Positions 10,681 to 35,937 of a stretch of 39,585 nucleotides of DNA are shown piece after piece (within the stretch, counting starts at the first letter, position 1; every line of letters starts with the position of its first letter). The position numbers and the translations under genes were made by a program. Source of the stretch: an uncultured Pseudomonadota bacterium. Lineage in GTDB: Bacteria > Pseudomonadota > Alphaproteobacteria > RF32 > CAG-239. Under the pieces are notes generated by a model. It was not told the origin of the DNA, ran no database searches, and saw nothing but the letters and a program-made list of their open reading frames with translations. Location of the stretch: the NCBI GenBank assembly GCA_902785935.1, contig CADAAN010000004.1:1-39585 (forward strand), in the 5' to 3' direction.

Positions 10681-10838
10681 GCGTAACCAATATGGTTGCG
10701 GTGTCTAGGAAACATCTTTAACTGTATAGCTCCTTGTAGGGAGTAAACGATATAAGCACATTTGTGACGAATAAGTTTGTCTGTACAGTTACAGTTTTCT
10801 AGCTCCCACTTTGGAATTTTCTGAAGTGTTTTTTTTAA
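10681..10838 (+). ncRNA. Structured leader RNA, copy A
   Basis: Not protein coding. The following pairings can be drawn. Hairpin 1 is CGTAACC with GGTTGCG (10682-10700). Hairpin 2 is GTGT with ACAT (about 10701-10715). The domain-closing helix P2 is AACTGTA (10720-10726) with TACAGTT (10784-10790). P3 is CTCC (10730-10733) with GGAG (10740-10743). P4 is TAAAC with GTTTG, and it holds the small CACA/TGTG hairpin. The 3' strand of P3, GGGAG (10739-10743), can instead pair with CTCCC at 10803-10807. That segment abuts a terminator hairpin, CACTT (10807-10811) with AAGTG (10824-10828), followed by eight T. The same plan recurs at three other places in the window. The downstream gene is the prepilin-like protein, about 145 bases on. 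Confidence 0.6.
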
Positions 10839-10849
10839 TTTAACAATAA

Positions 10850-10936
10850 CGTCATCCCGAATTCATTGGAGCTCGAAAAACTCGCTCATCTCCGATTCCG
10901 GGATCTGTGAGATCCTGAGACAAGCTCAGGATGACG
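10850..10936. repeat. Palindromic intergenic repeat
   Basis: An 87-base imperfect inverted repeat. The ends CGTCATCCCGA and TCAGGATGACG are near-complementary, and a perfect inner stem pairs CCTGAG with CTCAGG around ACAAG (10914-10930). The GTCATCC...GGATGAC wording is that of dispersed palindromes common in intergenic DNA of many alphaproteobacteria. It lies between leader RNA A and the prepilin-like gene and could be transcribed as a long hairpin. Confidence 0.65.
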
Positions 10937-10984
10937 ATTAAGGGTTCTGGATGATGATAATATAAAGAAAATAGGAGAAAAAAT

Positions 10985-11653
10985 ATGAGATGTAGAAACG
11001 AAACAGGCAGAAGTATGGTTGAGATGCTTGGCGTGCTGGCGATTGTCGGGGTGTTGTCGGCGGGGGCTTTAAAAGGTTATTCTAAGGCGATGATGCGACA
11101 TAAATTAAACAAGAATGCTGATGAAATAAGCTACCTTCTTGCTACGGCAATTTTAAATCAGGATAAGCTAGCAGGAGCAAATTTTGGTATGATTGAAGAA
11201 TTGAAGGCTTTGGGTGCTTTTACGTTTCCGATTGAAGTATATACTCCCGCTTGGCCCGGAGGGGGATATCGAGCCGTTAACGATTCGCTCGGCAATCAAA
11301 TTTGGTTTGAAAACTATACTAAAGAAGAGTATCCTCAAGTCGGTGATTTGATGGCTTTTGCGGTTTATTTGCCTCAATCAGATTACATCAATAAGGTTTG
11401 CTATAATTACGTGAATGTTTTCAAAAGTATGGCTTCTGAAATTTACGGAATTTATGCAACAAATGAAACAGGTTCCGAAACTAAAAGAGATGCTTATCGC
11501 GGACAATCCTGTTCTTTTGGAAAATGTCTTGAAACAATGACAAATACGGACATTATCAATATGTGCCAAAAGCATTGCGCCAATGCCCAACGTTGCATAT
11601 TGTACGCAAACTGGGGCGTGCCCGGAGAAATGATACAAAAGAGATTTGAGTAA
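10985..11653 (+). CDS. Prepilin-like (type IV pilin/pseudopilin N-terminus) surface protein
   Basis: A 222-residue protein with a short basic leader, then G-RSMVE and a hydrophobic helix (MLGVLAIVGVLSAGALKGYSKAM). That is the prepilin peptidase site with Glu at +5 of the mature protein, so I read it as a type IV pilin or pseudopilin-like protein. The remaining 170 residues have no recognisable fold. They include several cysteines towards the C-terminus (CYNYV, CSFGKCLE, MCQKHCANAQRCILY), suggesting disulfides outside the cytoplasm. A clear AGGAG precedes the ATG. No pilus assembly genes are nearby. The leader RNA and palindromic repeat upstream suggest regulated expression. Minor pilin or adhesin is the likeliest role. 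Confidence 0.7.
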   Translation: MRCRNETGRSMVEMLGVLAIVGVLSAGALKGYSKAMMRHKLNKNADEISYLLATAILNQDKLAGANFGMIEELKALGAFTFPIEVYTPAWPGGGYRAVNDSLGNQIWFENYTKEEYPQVGDLMAFAVYLPQSDYINKVCYNYVNVFKSMASEIYGIYATNETGSETKRDAYRGQSCSFGKCLETMTNTDIINMCQKHCANAQRCILYANWGVPGEMIQKRFE

Positions 11654-13624: not shown

Positions 13625-13699
13625 GGCCGGTTGGCAGAATGGCTTATGCAGAGGACTGCAAATCCTTTTATATCGGTTCAATTCCGGTACCGGCCTCCA
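13625..13699 (+). tRNA. tRNA-Cys (GCA)
   Basis: A complete cloverleaf can be drawn: acceptor GGCCGGT (13625-13631) with ACCGGCC (13689-13695), discriminator T, encoded CCA, anticodon GCA at 13658-13660 with flanking GGACT/AATCC, and a GGTTCAATTCC T-arm. The next tRNA follows after four bases. Confidence 0.95.
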
Positions 13700-13703
13700 A
13701 AAT

Positions 13704-13778
13704 TCCGACTTAGCTCAGCGGTAGAGCAATCGGCTGTTAACCGATCGGTCGTCCGTTCGAACCGGACAGTCGGAGCCA
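13704..13778 (+). tRNA. tRNA-Asn (GTT)
   Basis: Acceptor TCCGACT (13704-13710) pairs with AGTCGGA (13768-13774), followed by discriminator G and encoded CCA. The D-arm is AGCTCAGCGGTAGAGC, the anticodon arm ATCGGCTGTTAACCGAT (GTT), and the T-arm TCCGTTCGAACCGGA. The last 18 bases of this locus are repeated exactly at 16684-16701. Confidence 0.96.
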
Positions 13779-15609: not shown

Positions 15610-16065
15610 TTATTCCGAGCAACTAAAAGAAACACATTTTGTTTTTTCAAGCATATACTCATTGACATTGATATCATCTGCCCATAAAATTCCGACATGA
15701 CGCGTTTCACCTCTGCACACTTTATCAGGGGTTTCTTCAAAATAAATATGCTCTTCATGAAAACTCAAAAGGCGTTTCAACTCTTGTTGAGCTTCTTTGC
15801 CATATTTTTTGACTTCCTCAGGAGAAATATTCATTTTTTTTGCTTGTCTTAACGATTTATCATTTGTACGTGATTCCGGACAATCTATATCGGCTAATCG
15901 AATTGAAACATATTGATTATTAAGAGCTGCTTTAACAGTATCGCCATCAGAAACTTTTGCAATCGTAACCTGTACTTTTTTAGGTGACGCTATTTCCGCT
16001 GCTATTGATTGTGTATTCAACGCAAAAGCAACAACAAGACTTAAAACAAAAATTGATTTTTCCAT
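15610..16065 (-). CDS. Secreted thermonuclease-like (SNase fold) protein
   Basis: About 151 residues from the ATG at 16065, which starts a clear signal peptide (EKSIFVLSLVVAFALNTQSIAAE); an ATG at 16089 would add eight residues. The SNase/TNase-like pattern follows: VSDGDTVKA, then IRLADIDCPES (the Arg of the catalytic set and a metal-binding Asp), KKYGKEAQQELKRLL (Glu region), then ETRHVGILW (second Arg) and NEYML. Such enzymes cleave DNA and RNA with calcium. The length is normal. The C-terminus (KTKCVSFSCSE) adds two cysteines. It is the first gene of a three-gene operon behind structured leader RNA D. Confidence 0.75.
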   Translation of the reverse strand: MEKSIFVLSLVVAFALNTQSIAAEIASPKKVQVTIAKVSDGDTVKAALNNQYVSIRLADIDCPESRTNDKSLRQAKKMNISPEEVKKYGKEAQQELKRLLSFHEEHIYFEETPDKVCRGETRHVGILWADDINVNEYMLEKTKCVSFSCSE

Positions 16066-16094: not shown

Positions 16095-16352
16095 CCCAAA
16101 GTACGCCTTTTTAAAAGGCGGACGGGGCGTACAAAAATCATATACTGCAAATGACTCCGATGACCTTTAGGTAACAGCCTTGAACATCTCTCACCGGCAC
16201 CCCAACCGAAGTCAGGGGATAATTTGGGATTATTCTTTTAAAAAAATATACCCTCAAAAATACAGTGCATCCATCACTGTGCAGTATTAAAGCTTTTGTA
16301 AGCTCCGTGCCCAATATCAAGGCACTTGATAAAGAAATCACTTTCCTTATCT
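16095..16352 (-). ncRNA. Structured leader RNA, copy D
   Basis: Reading on the minus strand from the predicted start near 16352: two 5' hairpins (GTGCC/GGGCAC and AGCTT/AAGCT), then the closing helix ATACTGC with GCAGTAT. Inside it lie ACAGTG/CACTGT, an AT-rich hairpin, CCCC/GGGG, and a GTGA/TCAT arm holding AGG/CCT. The 3' strand GGGGTG of the G/C hairpin can pair with the downstream CGCCCC. That segment is part of the next hairpin, GTACGCC with GGCGTAC (16101-16131), and the following U-tract is interrupted. The core phrase CTAAAGGTCAT..GAGTCATTT is shared with copy C at 35 kb. The nuclease gene starts about 30 bases downstream. Confidence 0.6.
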
Positions 16353-30068: not shown

Positions 30069-31199
30069 TTATCTGTACCTTATTTTGACATGATTTGACT
30101 TGCCTGCCACCTGATTTGCCTCGTCGATGGTATAGATACGCTTTCCTGTATATTTGACTAAATTGCCTTGATAGTCGCGATAAGCTGTACTGCCGTCGGG
30201 TTGTTTTTCGCCAATCAAAGCCGGTTGCAAAGTATATGTTCCGTCGGCATAATTTAAGCCGCGCATGGCATCACGGCAAGCGACCAATTCTCCGCGGCAG
30301 TTGATGGTTTTGTTGGTTAAGTCCAATGCGACTTGTCCTGTAGAACCTGAGCCGCTGGAAATTACAAATCTTGCCAAAGCCTCAGGACTGATGGTGATGT
30401 CGGTAATACTTGATGGAAAGGCATAATCTCCAATACTTGTGACCGAATCGGGTATCTCAATTGAGGTAAGGCTGTCGTTGTCAGCAAATGCCCAACCTCC
30501 TATTGAAGTGACAGAATCGGGAATCACAACCGAGGTCAGATTGTTAGCCCCGAATGCCCTCTCTCCAATACTTGTGACTGAATCAGGAATCGTCACAGAG
30601 GTCAAATTGTTGGCATAAAATGCAAAATTTTCGATTGATGTAACCGAATCGGGAATCGTTACAGAGGTCAGGTTGTTGAGAAAAAATGCATAATTTCCGA
30701 TTGAAGTGACAGAATCGGGAATCGTCACTGATGTCAGGTTGTTTTCACCAAATGCATAACCTTCAATTGATGTGACCGTATCAGGTATCACAACCGAAGT
30801 CAGGTTGTTCAGAGCAAATGCACCATATCCAATTGAAGTAACCGAATCGAGAATCGTCACTGATGTCAGGTTGTTGTGAGAAAACGCATTTTCTCCGATT
30901 GAAGATATTGTCCCTGTCACAACAACATTTTCGATGCCGGTAAATCGAGTGTCTTTATTATTACCGGATACACTTTTTCCGTTTGAATCATATGTGGGCG
31001 TGAAAGCCTTATTGTTTACAGATGCATTTTCTCCTGTCCCTGTAATAGTCAAGGTTTTACCATCTTCTGAAATGGTGTATGAACAGCCTGTGCCGCAGGC
31101 ATCCGCCACACCTTCATCGCCCGCTGTTCCGGCATAAACATTTACCGCCCCTAAAGCCGTCCCTGCTATCAATGCAAATATAAATTGACTGTATTTCAT
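30069..31199 (-). CDS. BspA-like leucine-rich repeat surface protein (first)
   Basis: I start at the ATG at 31199 (MKYSQFIFALIAGTALGAVNVYAG), which has an AGGAG site and a signal peptide; 376 residues. After an N-terminal segment with two cysteines comes an array of about seven to eight 23-residue repeats of the form LTSVTIPDSVTSIGxxAFxxNN, the BspA/TpLRR leucine-rich type found in secreted and surface proteins that bind host or other ligands. The DNA repeats are about 69 bp and nearly identical. The C-terminal 24 residues (KRIYTIDEAN..., VAGK, ending IRYR) are almost the same in the second BspA-like protein at 33.8 kb. Leader RNA B lies directly upstream. Confidence 0.85.
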   Translation of the reverse strand: MKYSQFIFALIAGTALGAVNVYAGTAGDEGVADACGTGCSYTISEDGKTLTITGTGENASVNNKAFTPTYDSNGKSVSGNNKDTRFTGIENVVVTGTISSIGENAFSHNNLTSVTILDSVTSIGYGAFALNNLTSVVIPDTVTSIEGYAFGENNLTSVTIPDSVTSIGNYAFFLNNLTSVTIPDSVTSIENFAFYANNLTSVTIPDSVTSIGERAFGANNLTSVVIPDSVTSIGGWAFADNDSLTSIEIPDSVTSIGDYAFPSSITDITISPEALARFVISSGSGSTGQVALDLTNKTINCRGELVACRDAMRGLNYADGTYTLQPALIGEKQPDGSTAYRDYQGNLVKYTGKRIYTIDEANQVAGKSNHVKIRYR

Positions 31200-31235
31200 A
31201 TTTTTTCTCCTGTTTTTATTTTTTTCACACTTTAA

Positions 31236-31400
31236 ACAAAAAAATTCCGTCTTAGATAACCAAAACGGGAGGAGCTGTAAGAACTGTAACATCACAGGTG
31301 AAAGTATTCCAAAGTTAAACTTTTCTATTCCTTTCACTCCTCCTAAGAGGAGTTTTGATGCTAAGATGTCTTACAAACATCGCAACCATTTTGGTTACGT
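31236..31400 (-). ncRNA. Structured leader RNA, copy B
   Basis: Minus-strand transcript beginning near 31399. Pairings: CGTAACC with GGTTGCG, then GATGT with ACATC. The closing helix is AGCATCA with TGATGTT. P3 is ACTCCTC with GAGGAGT. P4 is GTGAAAG with CTTTCAC, and it holds AAAGT/ACTTT. P3's 3' strand GGAGGAG is also fully complementary (7 bp) to CTCCTCC (plus-strand 31268-31274), which touches the terminator stem CCGTTTT with AAGACGG (31268-31262 and 31253-31247). That stem is followed by a U-tract. The BspA-like gene starts only 37 bases beyond with no room for another promoter, so its mRNA must read through this terminator. Confidence 0.65.
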
Positions 31401-31405
31401 CTTTA

Positions 31406-31434
31406 ATTGTGGCATAAAATAAGTGCGTTGTCAA
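31406..31434 (-). promoter_or_regulatory. Promoter of leader RNA B
   Basis: On the minus strand: consensus TTGACA (31434-31429), 17 bases, CACAAT (31411-31406). The first leader hairpin starts about nine bases after the -10 box. Confidence 0.7.
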
Positions 31435-31466
31435 ATATTTTTCTTTTAAAATTGATAAAAAAATGC

Positions 31467-31494
31467 TTGAAAATCATAAAAAAGGTTGTATAAA
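31467..31494 (+). promoter_or_regulatory. Probable rpsA promoter
   Basis: TTGAAA (31467-31472), 16 bases, TATAAA (31489-31494). It is divergent from the leader RNA B promoter, leaving a 5' leader of about 100 bases before rpsA. Confidence 0.6.
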
Positions 31495-31604
31495 GAGCCT
31501 GTCTTTGTTTCAAAGGGCGCGCTTTGAAAGATATTTTTTTTAACTTCGCGCAAGTCCGCTTTTGCAAAGCAAAGGGTCCGGCAACAAAAAAAGAAATTTA
31601 TTTT

Positions 31605-33287
31605 ATGACTACAGAATTTAAAATCCCCGAAACAACTGAAAATTTTGAAGAACTCTTGAATGAGCAATTCGGTGACAAAGGTATTGTCGGTACAGTTGTT
31701 AAAGGTACCATTATCCGTGTGACTGATGATTTTGTGACCGTTGATGTCGGTTTGAAGTCCGAAGGTCGTATTCCGCTTCGTGAATTTGGCCAAAATCCGG
31801 AACTCAAAGTCGGCGATCAGGTTGAAGTTTTGGTTGACAGATATGAAGATAAAGACGGCAACATTGTTTTGTCACGTGAAAAAGCACGTCGTGAAGAAGC
31901 TTGGGTTGAGCTTGAAAAATTGATGAATGCCGGTGAACGTGTCAATGGTATCATTTTCGGTCGCGTTAAAGGCGGCTTTACCGTTGATTTGCAAGGTGCT
32001 ATTGCCTTCTTGCCTGGTTCACAAATTGATATTCGCCCGATTAAAGATGTGACACCTTTGATGGGTATTTCTCAACCTTTCCAAATTTTGAAAATGGACA
32101 GAGAACGTGGCAATATTGTTGTTTCACGTCGTGTTGTTTTGGAAGAAACAAGAGCAGAAGCCAGAGCAGAATTGATTGACGCCATTAAAGAAGGTGCCGT
32201 TTTGGATGGTATTGTGAAAAATATCACAGATTATGGTGCATTTGTTGACTTAGGCGGTGTTGACGGTTTGCTCCATGTGACGGATATTTCATGGAAACGC
32301 ATCAATCATCCGGCAGAAGTTTTGAGTGTCGGCCAGACAATTAAAGTCCAAGTGATTAAATTCAATGAAGATACACAGCGCATCAGCCTTGGTATGAAAC
32401 AGCTTGAAAAAGATCCTTGGGAAGGTGTTGAAGAAAAATATCACCTCGGCGATGTGATGAAAGGTATTGTCACAAACATCACGGACTATGGTGCATTTGT
32501 TGAGCTTGAAGACGGTATTGAAGGTTTGGTCCACGTTTCAGAAATGAGCTGGACACGCAAAAACGTTCATCCGGGCAAGATTGTTTCAACATCTGAAGAA
32601 GTTGAAGTTAAAGTTTTGGAAGTTGATCCCGAAAAGAGAAGAATCAGCCTTGGTATCAAACAATGCCAACCCAATCCGTGGGCGGCTTATGTTGAAGAGC
32701 ATCCTGCCGGTTCTGTCATTGAAGGCACAATCAAAAACATTACTGAATTTGGTTTGTTTGTCGGCTTGACGGACGAAATCGACGGTATGATTCACCTTTC
32801 TGATATTGCATGGGGTGAAACAGGCGAAGAAGCTGTCAAAGCTTATGAAAAAGGTCAGGAAATTAAAGCCAAAATCATCGATGTTGATGTTGAAAAAGAG
32901 CGTATCAGCTTGGGTATCAAACAGCTTGATGAAAACAATGCGGCTTTAGCGCTTGAAAACTTGAAGAAAGGTGACATTGTCAGAGCTATTGTCACCGGTG
33001 TTGAAGAAAAAGGCGTTGCTGTCGAAGTTGAGGGCATTCCGGCTTTGATTAAAAAAGCTGACTTGTCAAAAGACAAAGAAGGTCAAGTTTTGGAAAACTA
33101 TCACGAAGGTGATGTTTTAGAGGCAAAGCTTACTTCTGTTGACAGAAAGAACGGCAAACTCGGTGTTTCGGTCAAAGCATTTGAAATTGAAGAAGAAAAG
33201 AAGGCTTTGGAAGAATATTCAAATTCCAATGCTGCCGGAACTTCTTTAGGTGAAGCTTTGGGCGAAGCTTTGAAAAAAGCCAACTAA
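31605..33287 (+). CDS. rpsA: 30S ribosomal protein S1
   Basis: A 560-residue S1 protein with six OB-fold S1 repeats. Representative repeats are GTIIRVTDDFVTVDVG, NGIIFGRVKGGFTVDL, GIVKNITDYGAFVDLGGVDGLLHVTDISW, GIVTNITDYGAFVELEDGIEGLVHVSEMSW, GTIKNITEFGLFVGLTDEIDGMIHLSDIAW, and a divergent sixth (AIVTGVEEKGVAVEVEG). It binds mRNA on the 30S subunit. I start at ATG 31605 (MTTEFKIPE); the ribosome site is weak, as often for rpsA, whose leader usually mediates autogenous control. The cmk and ihfB neighbours seen in many proteobacteria are absent; a strong terminator follows. Confidence 0.96.
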   Translation: MTTEFKIPETTENFEELLNEQFGDKGIVGTVVKGTIIRVTDDFVTVDVGLKSEGRIPLREFGQNPELKVGDQVEVLVDRYEDKDGNIVLSREKARREEAWVELEKLMNAGERVNGIIFGRVKGGFTVDLQGAIAFLPGSQIDIRPIKDVTPLMGISQPFQILKMDRERGNIVVSRRVVLEETRAEARAELIDAIKEGAVLDGIVKNITDYGAFVDLGGVDGLLHVTDISWKRINHPAEVLSVGQTIKVQVIKFNEDTQRISLGMKQLEKDPWEGVEEKYHLGDVMKGIVTNITDYGAFVELEDGIEGLVHVSEMSWTRKNVHPGKIVSTSEEVEVKVLEVDPEKRRISLGIKQCQPNPWAAYVEEHPAGSVIEGTIKNITEFGLFVGLTDEIDGMIHLSDIAWGETGEEAVKAYEKGQEIKAKIIDVDVEKERISLGIKQLDENNAALALENLKKGDIVRAIVTGVEEKGVAVEVEGIPALIKKADLSKDKEGQVLENYHEGDVLEAKLTSVDRKNGKLGVSVKAFEIEEEKKALEEYSNSNAAGTSLGEALGEALKKAN

Positions 33288-33312
33288 AAGCTTGGTGTTT
33301 TAAGCCAAAAAA

Positions 33313-33345
33313 AGTCGCGCTTATCAGGCGCGGCTTTCTTTTTAT
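33313..33345 (+). terminator. rpsA terminator
   Basis: AGTCGCGC (33313-33320) pairs with GCGCGGCT (33328-33335), followed by a T-rich tail. On the other strand the A-run gives a U-tract, so it may also end the small minus-strand gene that follows. Confidence 0.85.
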
Positions 33346-33355
33346 GAATATTATC

Positions 33356-33739
33356 TTAATGACGATGTTTATGGCCGCCGTGGTGTTTTATTTGAACAGG
33401 TGCTTTTATTTTGTGGTGATGGTGGTGAGATTTATAACCATCATATAAAATTGCGCCGACCATAGCCGTTGTGATACCGGCTAAGATGGCGGAGCCCGTT
33501 GAATAGTCGTCGTAATAATAATTGTTTGTCTGTGTAGGATACTGCCGCACAACCGTCAATGCCGGTGATGTTGTTGTCGTGACAGTGTGGCTTAAAACAG
33601 CGGGTTGCGATACGCTTGTAACGGTATTTGTCGTCATTTGACGTGTGACATACCCGTTGTCATCAATAACGACAATTGTTTCAGCCATTGTGCTTGTTGC
33701 ATAAAGCATAAATGCAAGTGTATAAAAAAGTTTTTTCAT
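33356..33739 (-). CDS. Small exported His-rich protein
   Basis: A 127-residue protein with a GAGG ribosome site and signal peptide (KLFYTLAFMLYATSTMAE). The mature part is Thr/Val-rich. It has one hydrophobic glycine-containing segment (GSAILAGITTAMVGAILYDG, about residues 80-99), then a C-terminal tail rich in histidine and lysine (HHHHHK, KHHGGHKHRH). The tail suggests binding of a divalent metal such as zinc, nickel or copper, or simply a charged surface, and the helix may insert in a membrane. Family not recognised. Its stop is just past the rpsA terminator. Confidence 0.6.
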   Translation of the reverse strand: MKKLFYTLAFMLYATSTMAETIVVIDDNGYVTRQMTTNTVTSVSQPAVLSHTVTTTTSPALTVVRQYPTQTNNYYYDDYSTGSAILAGITTAMVGAILYDGYKSHHHHHKIKAPVQIKHHGGHKHRH

Positions 33740-33815
33740 TTTAACCTCATATAAAAATGTTTCAACAATCTATAAAACGAAAAAACTTTTGTTTGCGTTC
33801 ATTTTTTTATACAAA

Positions 33816-34943
33816 TCAGCGATAGCGAATTGAAAAAGTGTTTGTCTTGCCGGCGACGGCATTTGCCTCGTCAATGGTATAAATACGCTTGTTTTTGTAA
33901 CCGAGAAATGTCCCATCTGCATCATAATATGTTGTGCTGCCATCTTCATTTTTTGTGGTATAAGGATATCCGAAACCGATGCCGTGTTCATAGCCGTAAG
34001 CTTTACAAGCCGCAATGTTGTTGCATACCAATTTTTGGTTTGCCATATTGATTAAATCAAGGCAATCGCTTTGAGTTTTGCAAAGGCTGCCGCCGGCCAT
34101 CGATAAAGCTTTAGCGCTTTTATACGCTATAGCTTTGGTTTGGCAAGCTTCCAAAGTTTCGCATCCTTCTTCAGTCCCGCCGGCAGACATTGTTTCAGGT
34201 GAGGAATAAAAACTGTCACCAACGCGATAAACTCCATTCATATCTTTTGTATAGTTGATGATGTTGACAGCTTCCTCGTTTTGCCCTTTATTTGTGCAGT
34301 CCACGTCTGTTTGGCAATAAATCTGTATAGGAACCTGATATTCTCCGTTACTTCTTTGCCCGGTCATCCATTCACCCATCCCTATTTTTAAGAATGCATT
34401 CTCTGCGATGGTTGGTGTACCTTCAATTACCAAAGAAGTAATTGTTGCATCAGTGAATGCTTCACTTTCAATTCTTGTAACACTTTCCGGAATGACAAGT
34501 GTCATCGTTTTTCCAAAATAAGGCGACCATGAAAAAGCGTTTTTACCAATATTTGTTAGAGAATCGGGAATATTGACGCTTTGAAGGTTATAACAGCTAT
34601 CCACTGCGGCATAACCAATAGAAGTGACAGAATCTGCAATACTTAAACTTTCTATAGAAGAGTATTCAAAGGCACGTTCACCGATATTTTTTATTCCGGA
34701 AACAACAACAGATGTATAATCATTTCCCCATGGTACATCTATTGTCCAACGTGTCAAAGGAGTATAATCTTTCATTTCTCCTGTACCTGTAATTTGGAGT
34801 TCTGAGCCATTTCGGCGGGCCGTACATAAATCATTTGCTGTTTTGCCGCAATCCCAACAATTTTCTTCATCCACCCCGCAATCATTGGCGGCATTTGCAT
34901 TAAAACTTAATACTAAACCAAACATCAAAGTCCATTTTCTCAT
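33816..34943 (-). CDS. BspA-like leucine-rich repeat surface protein (second)
   Basis: Start at the ATG at 34943 (RKWTLMFGLVLSFNANAA, signal peptide) behind GGAG; 375 residues, nearly the length of the first. The repeat part is shorter and more diverged (IESLSIADSVTSIGYAAVDS, LQSVNIPDSLTNIGKNAF, LVIPESVTRIESEAF, LVIEGTPTIAENAF). Then comes a Cys-containing segment (CQTDVDCTNKG, GCETLEACQTKA, LCKTQSDCLDLINMANQKLVCNNIAACKAYG). The C-terminus repeats the KRIYTIDEAN...VAGK...IRYR ending of the other protein. Leader RNA C lies directly upstream. Confidence 0.82.
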   Translation of the reverse strand: MRKWTLMFGLVLSFNANAANDCGVDEENCWDCGKTANDLCTARRNGSELQITGTGEMKDYTPLTRWTIDVPWGNDYTSVVVSGIKNIGERAFEYSSIESLSIADSVTSIGYAAVDSCYNLQSVNIPDSLTNIGKNAFSWSPYFGKTMTLVIPESVTRIESEAFTDATITSLVIEGTPTIAENAFLKIGMGEWMTGQRSNGEYQVPIQIYCQTDVDCTNKGQNEEAVNIINYTKDMNGVYRVGDSFYSSPETMSAGGTEEGCETLEACQTKAIAYKSAKALSMAGGSLCKTQSDCLDLINMANQKLVCNNIAACKAYGYEHGIGFGYPYTTKNEDGSTTYYDADGTFLGYKNKRIYTIDEANAVAGKTNTFSIRYR

Positions 34944-34976
34944 AATATTTTCTCCAAAAAAAATTGTTAACACCAT

Positions 34977-35212
34977 AAAAAAAACCACTCTTTCGAGCGG
35001 CAGGGGAGTTGAACAATCACGTTTAGCGAAATGACTCTTATGACCTTTAGCTTTTTGACAAGCCTGAACATACGTCACAAGCTCCCCGCCTTGCGGGGAA
35101 TTTAAATACCAAAAAAAGGCATCCTAAACGGATACCATTTCTGGTATCGCTAAACTAAAGAGCCGTTCAAAGCCCCGAACCTCTCGGTTCTCGATGAAAT
35201 TTCTTTCATCGT
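34977..35212 (-). ncRNA. Structured leader RNA, copy C
   Basis: Minus-strand transcript starting near 35212. The 5' hairpins are CGATGAAA/TTTCATCG and GAACC/GGTTC. The closing helix is GTTTAGCG with CGCTAAAC (8 bp). Inside are GATACC/GGTATC, ATGCC/GGTAT, CCCCGC/GCGGGG and a GTGAC/GTCAT arm holding GCTT/AAGC. The G/C hairpin's 3' strand GGGGAG can pair instead with CTCCCC (plus-strand 35003-35008). A terminator follows, CCGCTC with GAGTGG (35000-34995 and 34990-34985), then eight U. The gene starts 34 bases later. Copies C and D share the two extra inner hairpins and the AAAGGTCAT..GAGTCATTT core. Confidence 0.65.
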
Positions 35213-35218
35213 GGTTTT

Positions 35219-35247
35219 ATTTTAGCAAACAAATTCGGCTTTGTAAA
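35219..35247 (-). promoter_or_regulatory. Promoter of leader RNA C
   Basis: On the minus strand: TTTACA (35247-35242), 17 bases, TAAAAT (35224-35219), with the first hairpin of the leader beginning about ten bases later. Confidence 0.65.
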
Positions 35248-35394
35248 GAAATTTTTTTCGCAACAAAAACACAAAATATATGACTTTAGATATATCAACA
35301 AATTTTTCAATTTTTTTTCGCCTTACATACAGCGTGCATATCGCCGAATTATATAAGAACAAACCAAGAACAGTTAATAAAATCCTAAAATTTT

Positions 35395-35428
35395 CCATTG
35401 ATTCCCATAAAATACCATGATATACCAT
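35395..35428. promoter_or_regulatory. MraZ operator: four ATGG boxes at 10-bp spacing
   Basis: CCAT occurs at 35395, 35405, 35415 and 35425, exactly one helical turn apart; on the minus strand this is ATGG-N6 repeated four times. MraZ proteins are known to bind tandem short direct repeats (TGGGN with 5-bp gaps in E. coli, hence a 10-bp period) upstream of their own gene. The array ends 35 bases before the mraZ start, as expected for autorepression. Confidence 0.75.
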
Positions 35429-35463
35429 AAACATTGTTTGATTTAAGAAAAAGGAAGTCATCG

Positions 35464-35937
35464 GTGAGAAAGACATTTCTCTTTTTAGATACTGTATTTA
35501 ACAAGGTTGATTCGAAGGGCAGAGTTTCGCTTCCTGCCGATTATCGTGCCATTGTTAAAGAGTTGTCATCCGAGATTGTTTGTTATCGCAGCTTAACTTC
35601 GCCTTGTATTGAGGGCTGTGCGGAAGATTTGCTTGAAAAGCTGGCTTCTGAAATTGAAGATTCCAATGACTTTTTTTCTGAAACACAAGATGATTTAACA
35701 AACCTTATTTTCGGTGATGCAAAGCGTTTTACGTTTGATAGTACGGGGCGCATCGTCTTGTCCGAAAAACTCTTAAAACATGCAGACATTACAGATACGG
35801 CTGTTTTTGTCGGTAAAGGACGCAAATTTCAAATTTGGTCGCCTGAAAATTGGGCCAAAGAAGAAGCACGCATCCGTCAAAAAGTTTTGCAGACAAGGCC
35901 GGTTTTAAACGCCAAAAAAACGGGAGATCAAGCCTGA
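35464..35937 (+). CDS. mraZ: MraZ transcriptional regulator
   Basis: I start at GTG 35464, eight bases behind AAAGGAAG, giving 157 residues. Two AbrB-like swapped-hairpin halves are seen: FNKVDSKGRVSLPADYRA near the N-terminus and RFTFDSTGRIVLSEKLLKHADI near residue 95. MraZ forms a ring and represses the division/cell-wall cluster, including its own promoter. It heads mraZ-rsmH-ftsL-ftsI, and the next start codon is one base past its stop. The CCAT array upstream is its likely operator. Confidence 0.92.
   Translation: MRKTFLFLDTVFNKVDSKGRVSLPADYRAIVKELSSEIVCYRSLTSPCIEGCAEDLLEKLASEIEDSNDFFSETQDDLTNLIFGDAKRFTFDSTGRIVLSEKLLKHADITDTAVFVGKGRKFQIWSPENWAKEEARIRQKVLQTRPVLNAKKTGDQA

Follow-up and report, generated by a model that had tools for sequence, protein, structure and literature searches.

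The window, a 39,585-nt stretch, is a single contig (C4) from a genome of 1.46 Mb that is 99% complete; it contains four structured leader RNAs located upstream of genes for exported proteins. An earlier reading of the sequence alone had placed these leaders, named A to D, in one family with a shared fold plan, and all four are found at the positions that it gave. The type I covariance model (R1), in which the core is aligned and the terminators are left outside, matches copies A and B alone (next match E 0.39), and its type II counterpart (R2) matches copies D and C alone (next match E 0.085), all covariance-model E-values being rough because of short calibration. In addition, the predicted fold of copy B has a z-score of −4.9 relative to shuffles. 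The elements of copy B, which precedes a BspA-type leucine-rich repeat (LRR_5) gene, are as follows.

31406–31434, minus strand: promoter, identified by its sequence (TTGACA at 31429–31434 and TATGCCACAAT at 31406–31416)
31271–31399, minus strand: type I RNA core, from HP1 to the CTCC linker (R1 E 2.7e-23; fold z −4.9)
31381–31399, minus strand: 5' hairpin HP1 (CGTAACC..GGTTGCG; 44 exact plus 6 near copies genome-wide, covarying across genera)
31365–31381, minus strand: hairpin HP2 (layout as in Rfam c4-a1b1)
31369–31376, minus strand: P1 5' strand TTGTAAGA, in the HP2 loop (a1 equivalent)
31356–31363, minus strand: P2 5' strand TAGCATCA (b1 equivalent; partner TGATGTTA at 31287–31294)
31336–31353, minus strand: hairpin P3 (3' strand GGAGGAG at 31337–31343)
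31300–31335, minus strand: P4 arm (internal loop GGAATAG / GGAATA, a diverged form of GAGATAAG / CGAATAA)
31284–31297, minus strand: hairpin HP5 (CTGT..ACAG), whose loop holds P2' (b' equivalent)
31275–31282, minus strand: P1 3' strand TCTTACAG (a' equivalent)
31268–31274, minus strand: linker CTCCTCC, complementary to the P3 3' strand GGAGGAG (last base common to the terminator stem)
31238–31268, minus strand: intrinsic terminator (gene start ATG at 31199)
30069–31199, minus strand: gene for an exported BspA-type LRR_5 protein of 376 aa (PF13306 at 30477–30803)

The other three copies and their genes are as follows.

10682–10806, plus strand: copy A, type I RNA (R1 E 2.4e-30)
10705–10713/10794–10802, 10719–10727/10783–10791, 10729–10744 and 10803–10807, plus strand: A helices P1, P2 and P3, and linker
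10807–10836, plus strand: A intrinsic terminator
10985–11653, plus strand: A gene, type IV pilin-like protein (GRSMVEMLGVLAIVGVLS)
16125–16306, minus strand: copy D, type II RNA (R2 E 2.2e-34)
16290–16306, 16281–16288/16142–16148, 16200–16219 and 16155–16197, minus strand: D elements HP2, P2, P3 and P4
16130–16137 and 16124–16129, minus strand: D P1' strand and linker
16104–16123, minus strand: D hairpin resembling a terminator, its U-tract poor
15610–16065, minus strand: D gene, SNase-like exported protein similar to thermonuclease (identified from its sequence alone), with its start corrected to 16065
35004–35176, minus strand: copy C, type II RNA, GATACC variant (R2 E 9.4e-29)
35160–35176, 35148–35157/35021–35028, 35083–35100 and 35035–35081, minus strand: C elements HP2, P2, P3 and P4
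35009–35014 and 35003–35008, minus strand: C P1' strand and linker
34977–35001, minus strand: C intrinsic terminator (GCCGCTC..GAGTGG T8)
33816–34943, minus strand: C gene, exported LRR_5 protein (PF13306 at 34389–34700)

The start of gene A lies 149 nt past its terminator, with a palindromic repeat (CGTCATCCCGAAT..TCAGGATGACG, 10845–10945) in between; similar repeats come after several other leaders. LRR_5 C-termini, for example those of the window genes at 30069 and 33816, share the motif RIYTIDEANxVAGKxNxxxIRYR, which is perhaps an anchoring or sorting domain.

Pattern searches of the host genome extend this set from four members to about one hundred. The 5'-hairpin pattern of A and B occurs 54 times (4 in the reversed control) and the P4-arm pattern of C and D 53 times (1 in the reversed control); reading of the flanks resolves these into 52 type I leaders, 50 of them intact and 2 damaged by deletions, and about 50 type II leaders, a count that rests on the pattern search. 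The two damaged copies, L017 and L038, have a common P1/P2 sequence and different deletions, one lacking P3 together with some of the P2 side and the other the P2'/P1' strands, so that they constitute natural mutants for the switch.

From 5' to 3', a type I leader consists of the promoter, HP1, HP2 (GTGT..ACAC, whose loop is the P1 5' strand), the P2 5' strand and P3 (ACTCC..GGAGT), followed by P4, HP5 (CTGT..ACAG, whose loop contains the P2 3' strand), the P1 3' strand, a CTCC(TCC/CC) linker and the terminator, after which come the Shine-Dalgarno sequence and the gene. The closing-helix pairs of the original fold plan are correct and correspond to P2; an additional variable helix outside it, P1, pairs the HP2 loop with the strand immediately before the linker. 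P1 and P2, with a length of 8–9 bp, are almost private to each copy and yet perfectly paired: among 49 type I copies there are 44 distinct P1 and 45 distinct P2 sequences, with pairing scores of 18.8 (P1) and 18.5 (P2) for a copy's own strands as opposed to 9.5 and 8.6 after exchange of partners between copies. Covariation reaches 0.528 in an alignment of 19 copies (A3), compared to 0.199 upon shuffling; slid structures do not exceed 0.11. In a larger alignment of 85 copies from gut-alphaproteobacterial MAGs (A5), which leans towards the model because it was fitted to it, both partners change in 32 of the 37 pairs and the score is 0.762 (0.218 shuffled).

Type II leaders follow the same plan, with an HP2 loop pairing with P1', P2, P3 (CCCCGA..TCGGGG), P4, linker and terminator. 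Unguided RNAalifold predicts 42 pairs, with compensatory changes in 23, and the covariation of alignment A8 is 0.573 versus 0.224. The P4 core, on the other hand, differs between types, being CGAATGTACAAG / CTAAAG in type II and a near-invariant GAGATAAG / CGAATAA in type I. The shared plan holds for all four copies, which fall into two related but distinct types, A/B and C/D. The poor loop conservation between these pairs, which had been taken to argue against a tight small-molecule aptamer, reflects the two subfamilies instead; because the P4 internal loop is strongly conserved within each type, a ligand- or protein-binding core stays conceivable.

Promoter and terminator signals accompany nearly every type I copy of the host genome, with a −35-like site in 52/52, a −10-like site in 50/52 and a hairpin followed by a T-run in 51/52; in the window, the terminator-like hairpin described for each copy is present, with the U-tract of D being poor. 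Complementarity between the linker and the 3' strand of P3, also part of the sequence-only reading, is real and covaries: the linker follows its partner through GGTGGAG/CTCCACC, GGCGGAG/CTCCGCC, GGAGGAG/CTCCTCC, GGGGAG/CTCCCC and CGTGGAG/CTCCACG, and none of 2000 permutations reaches the observed pairing score. For 83 of 85 copies, the linker duplex has a higher predicted stability than P3. In type II relatives this pairing lengthens to approximately 10 bp (GGTCGGGGAG/CTCTCCGACC). These features support two mutually exclusive states of the leader RNA, as judged from sequence. The linker overlaps the base of the terminator stem by merely 1–3 nt, suggesting that it may block the stem base rather than replace the stem. 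A separate candidate antiterminator, HP1, was rejected: AACCAAAATGG could pair with CCGTTTTAGGTTA in many of the leaders' own terminators, and in relatives the score is 12.8 for own and 12.3 for permuted partners (16/500). With a promoter of its own for each leader, an intrinsic terminator between it and an exported-protein gene, a covarying competing pairing upstream of that terminator, and dozens of homologues, the proposed transcription-attenuation architecture is well supported.

The host genome has 103 elements in total (52 of type I, 50 of type II and one RF02221-like), and 61 of them precede BspA-type LRR_5 genes, covering 61 of the 81 LRR_5 loci; random placement yields 4.1 such elements, with a maximum of 12 in 2000 trials. 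Genes downstream of the other elements include type IV pilin-like ones, and the start codon lies within 42 nt of the terminator in 37 of 49 measured type I copies. The single RF02221-like copy, of a third type (L298, G000:C8:20627–20714, 32.9 bits with RF02221), has a terminator and also precedes an LRR_5 gene, the first ORF of which looks truncated.

A covariance-model search of relatives, which had been suggested as a check, covers 153 genomes of the order; R1 (type I) matches 102 of them and R2 (type II) 124, copy numbers in relatives being lower bounds. Tandem type I leaders are observed 200–460 nt apart at G020:C12:36014/36237, G020:C6:71810/72036, G038:C9:3948/4169 and G434:C5:82612/83075. 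In a class sample, type I extends to two more families; type II extends to 19 genomes from other families, and the other alphaproteobacterial families that have it number about 16. Type I leaders of other genera mostly stand ahead of small Cro/C1-type HTH proteins; these form a large, divergent family of ~75–110 aa (L110–L130, L132–L208), often with several members per genome. Genes downstream of type II relatives encode lipoproteins, beta-barrels, a nuclease, pilins and regulators. Among the GTDB matches listed for the type I core pattern, all are MAGs labelled Alphaproteobacteria, Rhodospirillaceae or proteobacterium, many of them from rumen or gut; the same pattern has no match in viral contigs.

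At Rfam gathering thresholds the whole window yields two tRNAs and nothing else, and an E-value scan of 30900–35500 gives chance matches only. Tandem tRNA-Cys and tRNA-Asn genes are located at 13625–13778. The statement that no named class matches the leaders therefore holds at Rfam thresholds, but not once homology is followed through intermediates, which lead to RF02221 (sRNA-Xcc1) and to the C4 superfamily (RF01695/RF03163). Relative to a gathering threshold of 53 bits, at which RF02221 has no match in the window, this family scores 37.2 and 27.2 bits exactly on type II elements of two unrelated genomes, and its outer helix in Rfam is the P3'/linker pairing. When RF02221 loci are read 130 nt further upstream, HP2, P1 and P2 appear outside the Rfam model; the P1 and P2 pairings exceed all 1000 permutations, and 17 of 26 pairs of the extended loci covary on both sides.

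Genes downstream of the RF02221 loci encode Bro-N, Rha, P22_AR_N, KilA-N and SymE proteins, and the ribosome-binding region complements the P2' strand (0/1000 permutations). Many of these loci (L287, L289, L291, L295, L297, L302, L305, L312) have a Shine-Dalgarno region that closely repeats the 5' strands of P1 and P2, as exemplified by L295 with tcgaaaaCCCCaatagtagc upstream and tcgaaaaGGAGaatagtagc before the ATG; sRNA-Xcc1 thus has the appearance of one component of a C4-type cis/trans repressor that acts on antirepressor and symE genes. sRNA-Xcc1 was mapped as an 88-nt RNA (PMC2996969) and is located upstream of symE in integron cassettes that are common in Xanthomonas (PMC12444791); it apparently represents the 3' portion of a C4-type leader. 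Its Rfam family comprises the 3' 87 nt alone, as a free sRNA; the loci keep a ribosome-binding-site (RBS) target, unlike types I and II.

A covariance model built only from the upstream-extended RF02221 loci (R3) connects these elements to phage. It matches the c4 locus of phage P1, annotated as a1, b1, C4, a2, b2 and icd, with E 9.2e-6 (2.2-kb search, filters off), in a register where P1 corresponds to a1/a' and P2 to b1/b'. R3 also matches type II elements of other families in full register (E 1e-8 to 2e-6) and, again in register, 8 of 28 type I relative loci (E 1.6e-4 to 0.016), in these eight at the element and nowhere else. Within the window its lone match is copy A (10700–10811), at a weak E of 0.059, and there is no direct match to the type II copies; the C4 link of the window copies runs through intermediates. 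R1 and R2 do not match RF02221 loci, and the Rfam C4 models (RF01695/RF03163) at gathering threshold have no match in the window or in six relative loci.

The C4 RNAs of phages P1 and P7 (RF01695, RF03163 c4-a1b1, RF02944 c4-2) are arranged in the same order as the leaders: after the promoter come two hairpins, the second of which has a1 in its loop, then b1, a closing strand, an arm, a hairpin whose loop carries b', a' and another closing strand. The leaders reproduce the a1-b1 ... b'-a' arrangement with a1 and b' in hairpin loops. C4 RNA is processed by RNase P to a ~77-nt RNA. Phage C4 has an a2/b2 RBS target and antirepressor genes; in types I and II their places are taken by an intrinsic terminator and by surface genes of the bacterium. 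Permutation tests detect no a'/b' target within 110 nt downstream of type I (own copies and relatives) or type II, with RBS-target positive controls at 0/500 permutations; instead of a phage antirepressor operon, the window contains LRR_5, pilin and nuclease genes, antirepressors being found at RF02221 loci only. Lacking an antisense target and carrying a terminator in its place, types I and II are derivatives of the C4 superfamily rather than C4 antisense RNAs.

Taken together, the leaders are probably cis-acting transcription attenuators, derived from the architecture of phage C4-type antisense RNAs and amplified to about 100 copies. According to this model, each leader would be transcribed from its own promoter and the nascent RNA would adopt one of two exclusive folds. 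In the long-range fold, a1 and b1 would pair with a' and b', leaving P3 closed and the CTCC linker free, so that the terminator forms and the gene is off. The C4-like fold would instead join the 3' strand of P3 to the linker, with b' in the HP5 loop; the base of the terminator stem would be occupied and the gene on. Since each copy has P1 and P2 sequences of its own, every leader would address itself alone. Termination, readthrough and the direction of switching are inferred parts of the model, and our favoured guess is that binding of a protein or ligand to the conserved P4 internal loop acts as the trigger.

That loop is also an argument for a metabolite or second-messenger riboswitch, or a pair of such classes, in which it would be the aptamer and the likeness to C4 one of layout only. 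Its bases are nearly constant across 14 genera although the helices drift, the output goes through a terminator, tandem copies exist and the genome has one clear GGDEF protein. c-di-GMP riboswitches control surface genes in other bacteria, and multi-copy terminator riboswitches such as the c-di-GMP classes exchange strands between domain and terminator, with many copies on surface genes. Compared to these, types I and II have no Rfam match and carry copy-specific helices, which a riboswitch would not need; there is no consistent metabolic gene downstream (LRR proteins, pilins, small HTH proteins, lipoproteins and nuclease are found), and R3 ties the leaders to P1 c4 and RF02221, neither of which is known to have a ligand. 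A riboswitch, listed as an option by the earlier reading, is not required, and we consider it unlikely; as a whole, that reading's interpretation is partly supported.

The leaders could instead be precursors of trans-acting C4-like sRNAs, from which the piece from P3' to linker is excised and silences other mRNAs, the downstream gene being incidental. In phage P1, C4 is cut out by RNase P. Acinetobacter baumannii has a large family of processed C4-like sRNAs (PMC5320573), the P3' strand begins with GG like the RNase P site described there, and RF02221 was itself found as an 88-nt RNA (PMC2996969). The Group 1 sRNAs of A. baumannii likewise comprise many C4-derived RNAs with variable a' in one genome; they are, however, processed and trans-acting (PMC5320573), whereas types I and II are terminator-bearing leaders on surface genes. 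The position of 61 of 103 copies ahead of same-strand LRR_5 genes, the short terminator-to-start distance in 37 of 49 type I copies and the absence of an a2/b2 target in the 110 nt downstream make this explanation quite improbable. A repetitive or mobile element of the integron or REP kind that had travelled with surface genes and had no regulatory role would fit the high copy number and the occurrence of RF02221 RNA in a common Xanthomonas integron cassette with symE (PMC12444791), but is hardly credible given massive compensatory change, a promoter–leader–terminator–gene order kept in 14 genera, the rarity of decayed copies (2/52 type I) and no transposase seen within the window.

The attenuator model joins phage C4, sRNA-Xcc1 and two undescribed RNA families that were unjoined in the sources searched. 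In this literature, made up largely of papers available without subscription, no C4-type transcription attenuator and neither type I nor type II is described; the main text of a human-microbiome RNA survey (PMC8040213) does not mention the host lineage. In a lineage of gut Alphaproteobacteria, types I and II rank with the most common regulatory elements. A more speculative and rather doubtful extension is that a phage immunity RNA was domesticated into more than 100 orthogonal, self-addressed and perhaps stochastic switches that choose surface proteins, amounting to RNA-based surface variation. Should the switch operate in the inferred way, a translational silencer of phages would have become a transcription attenuator on most of the BspA-type surface genes of one bacterium; the system is a direct test of how an antisense RNA evolves into a cis switch, and bears on how gut bacteria control large families of surface proteins.
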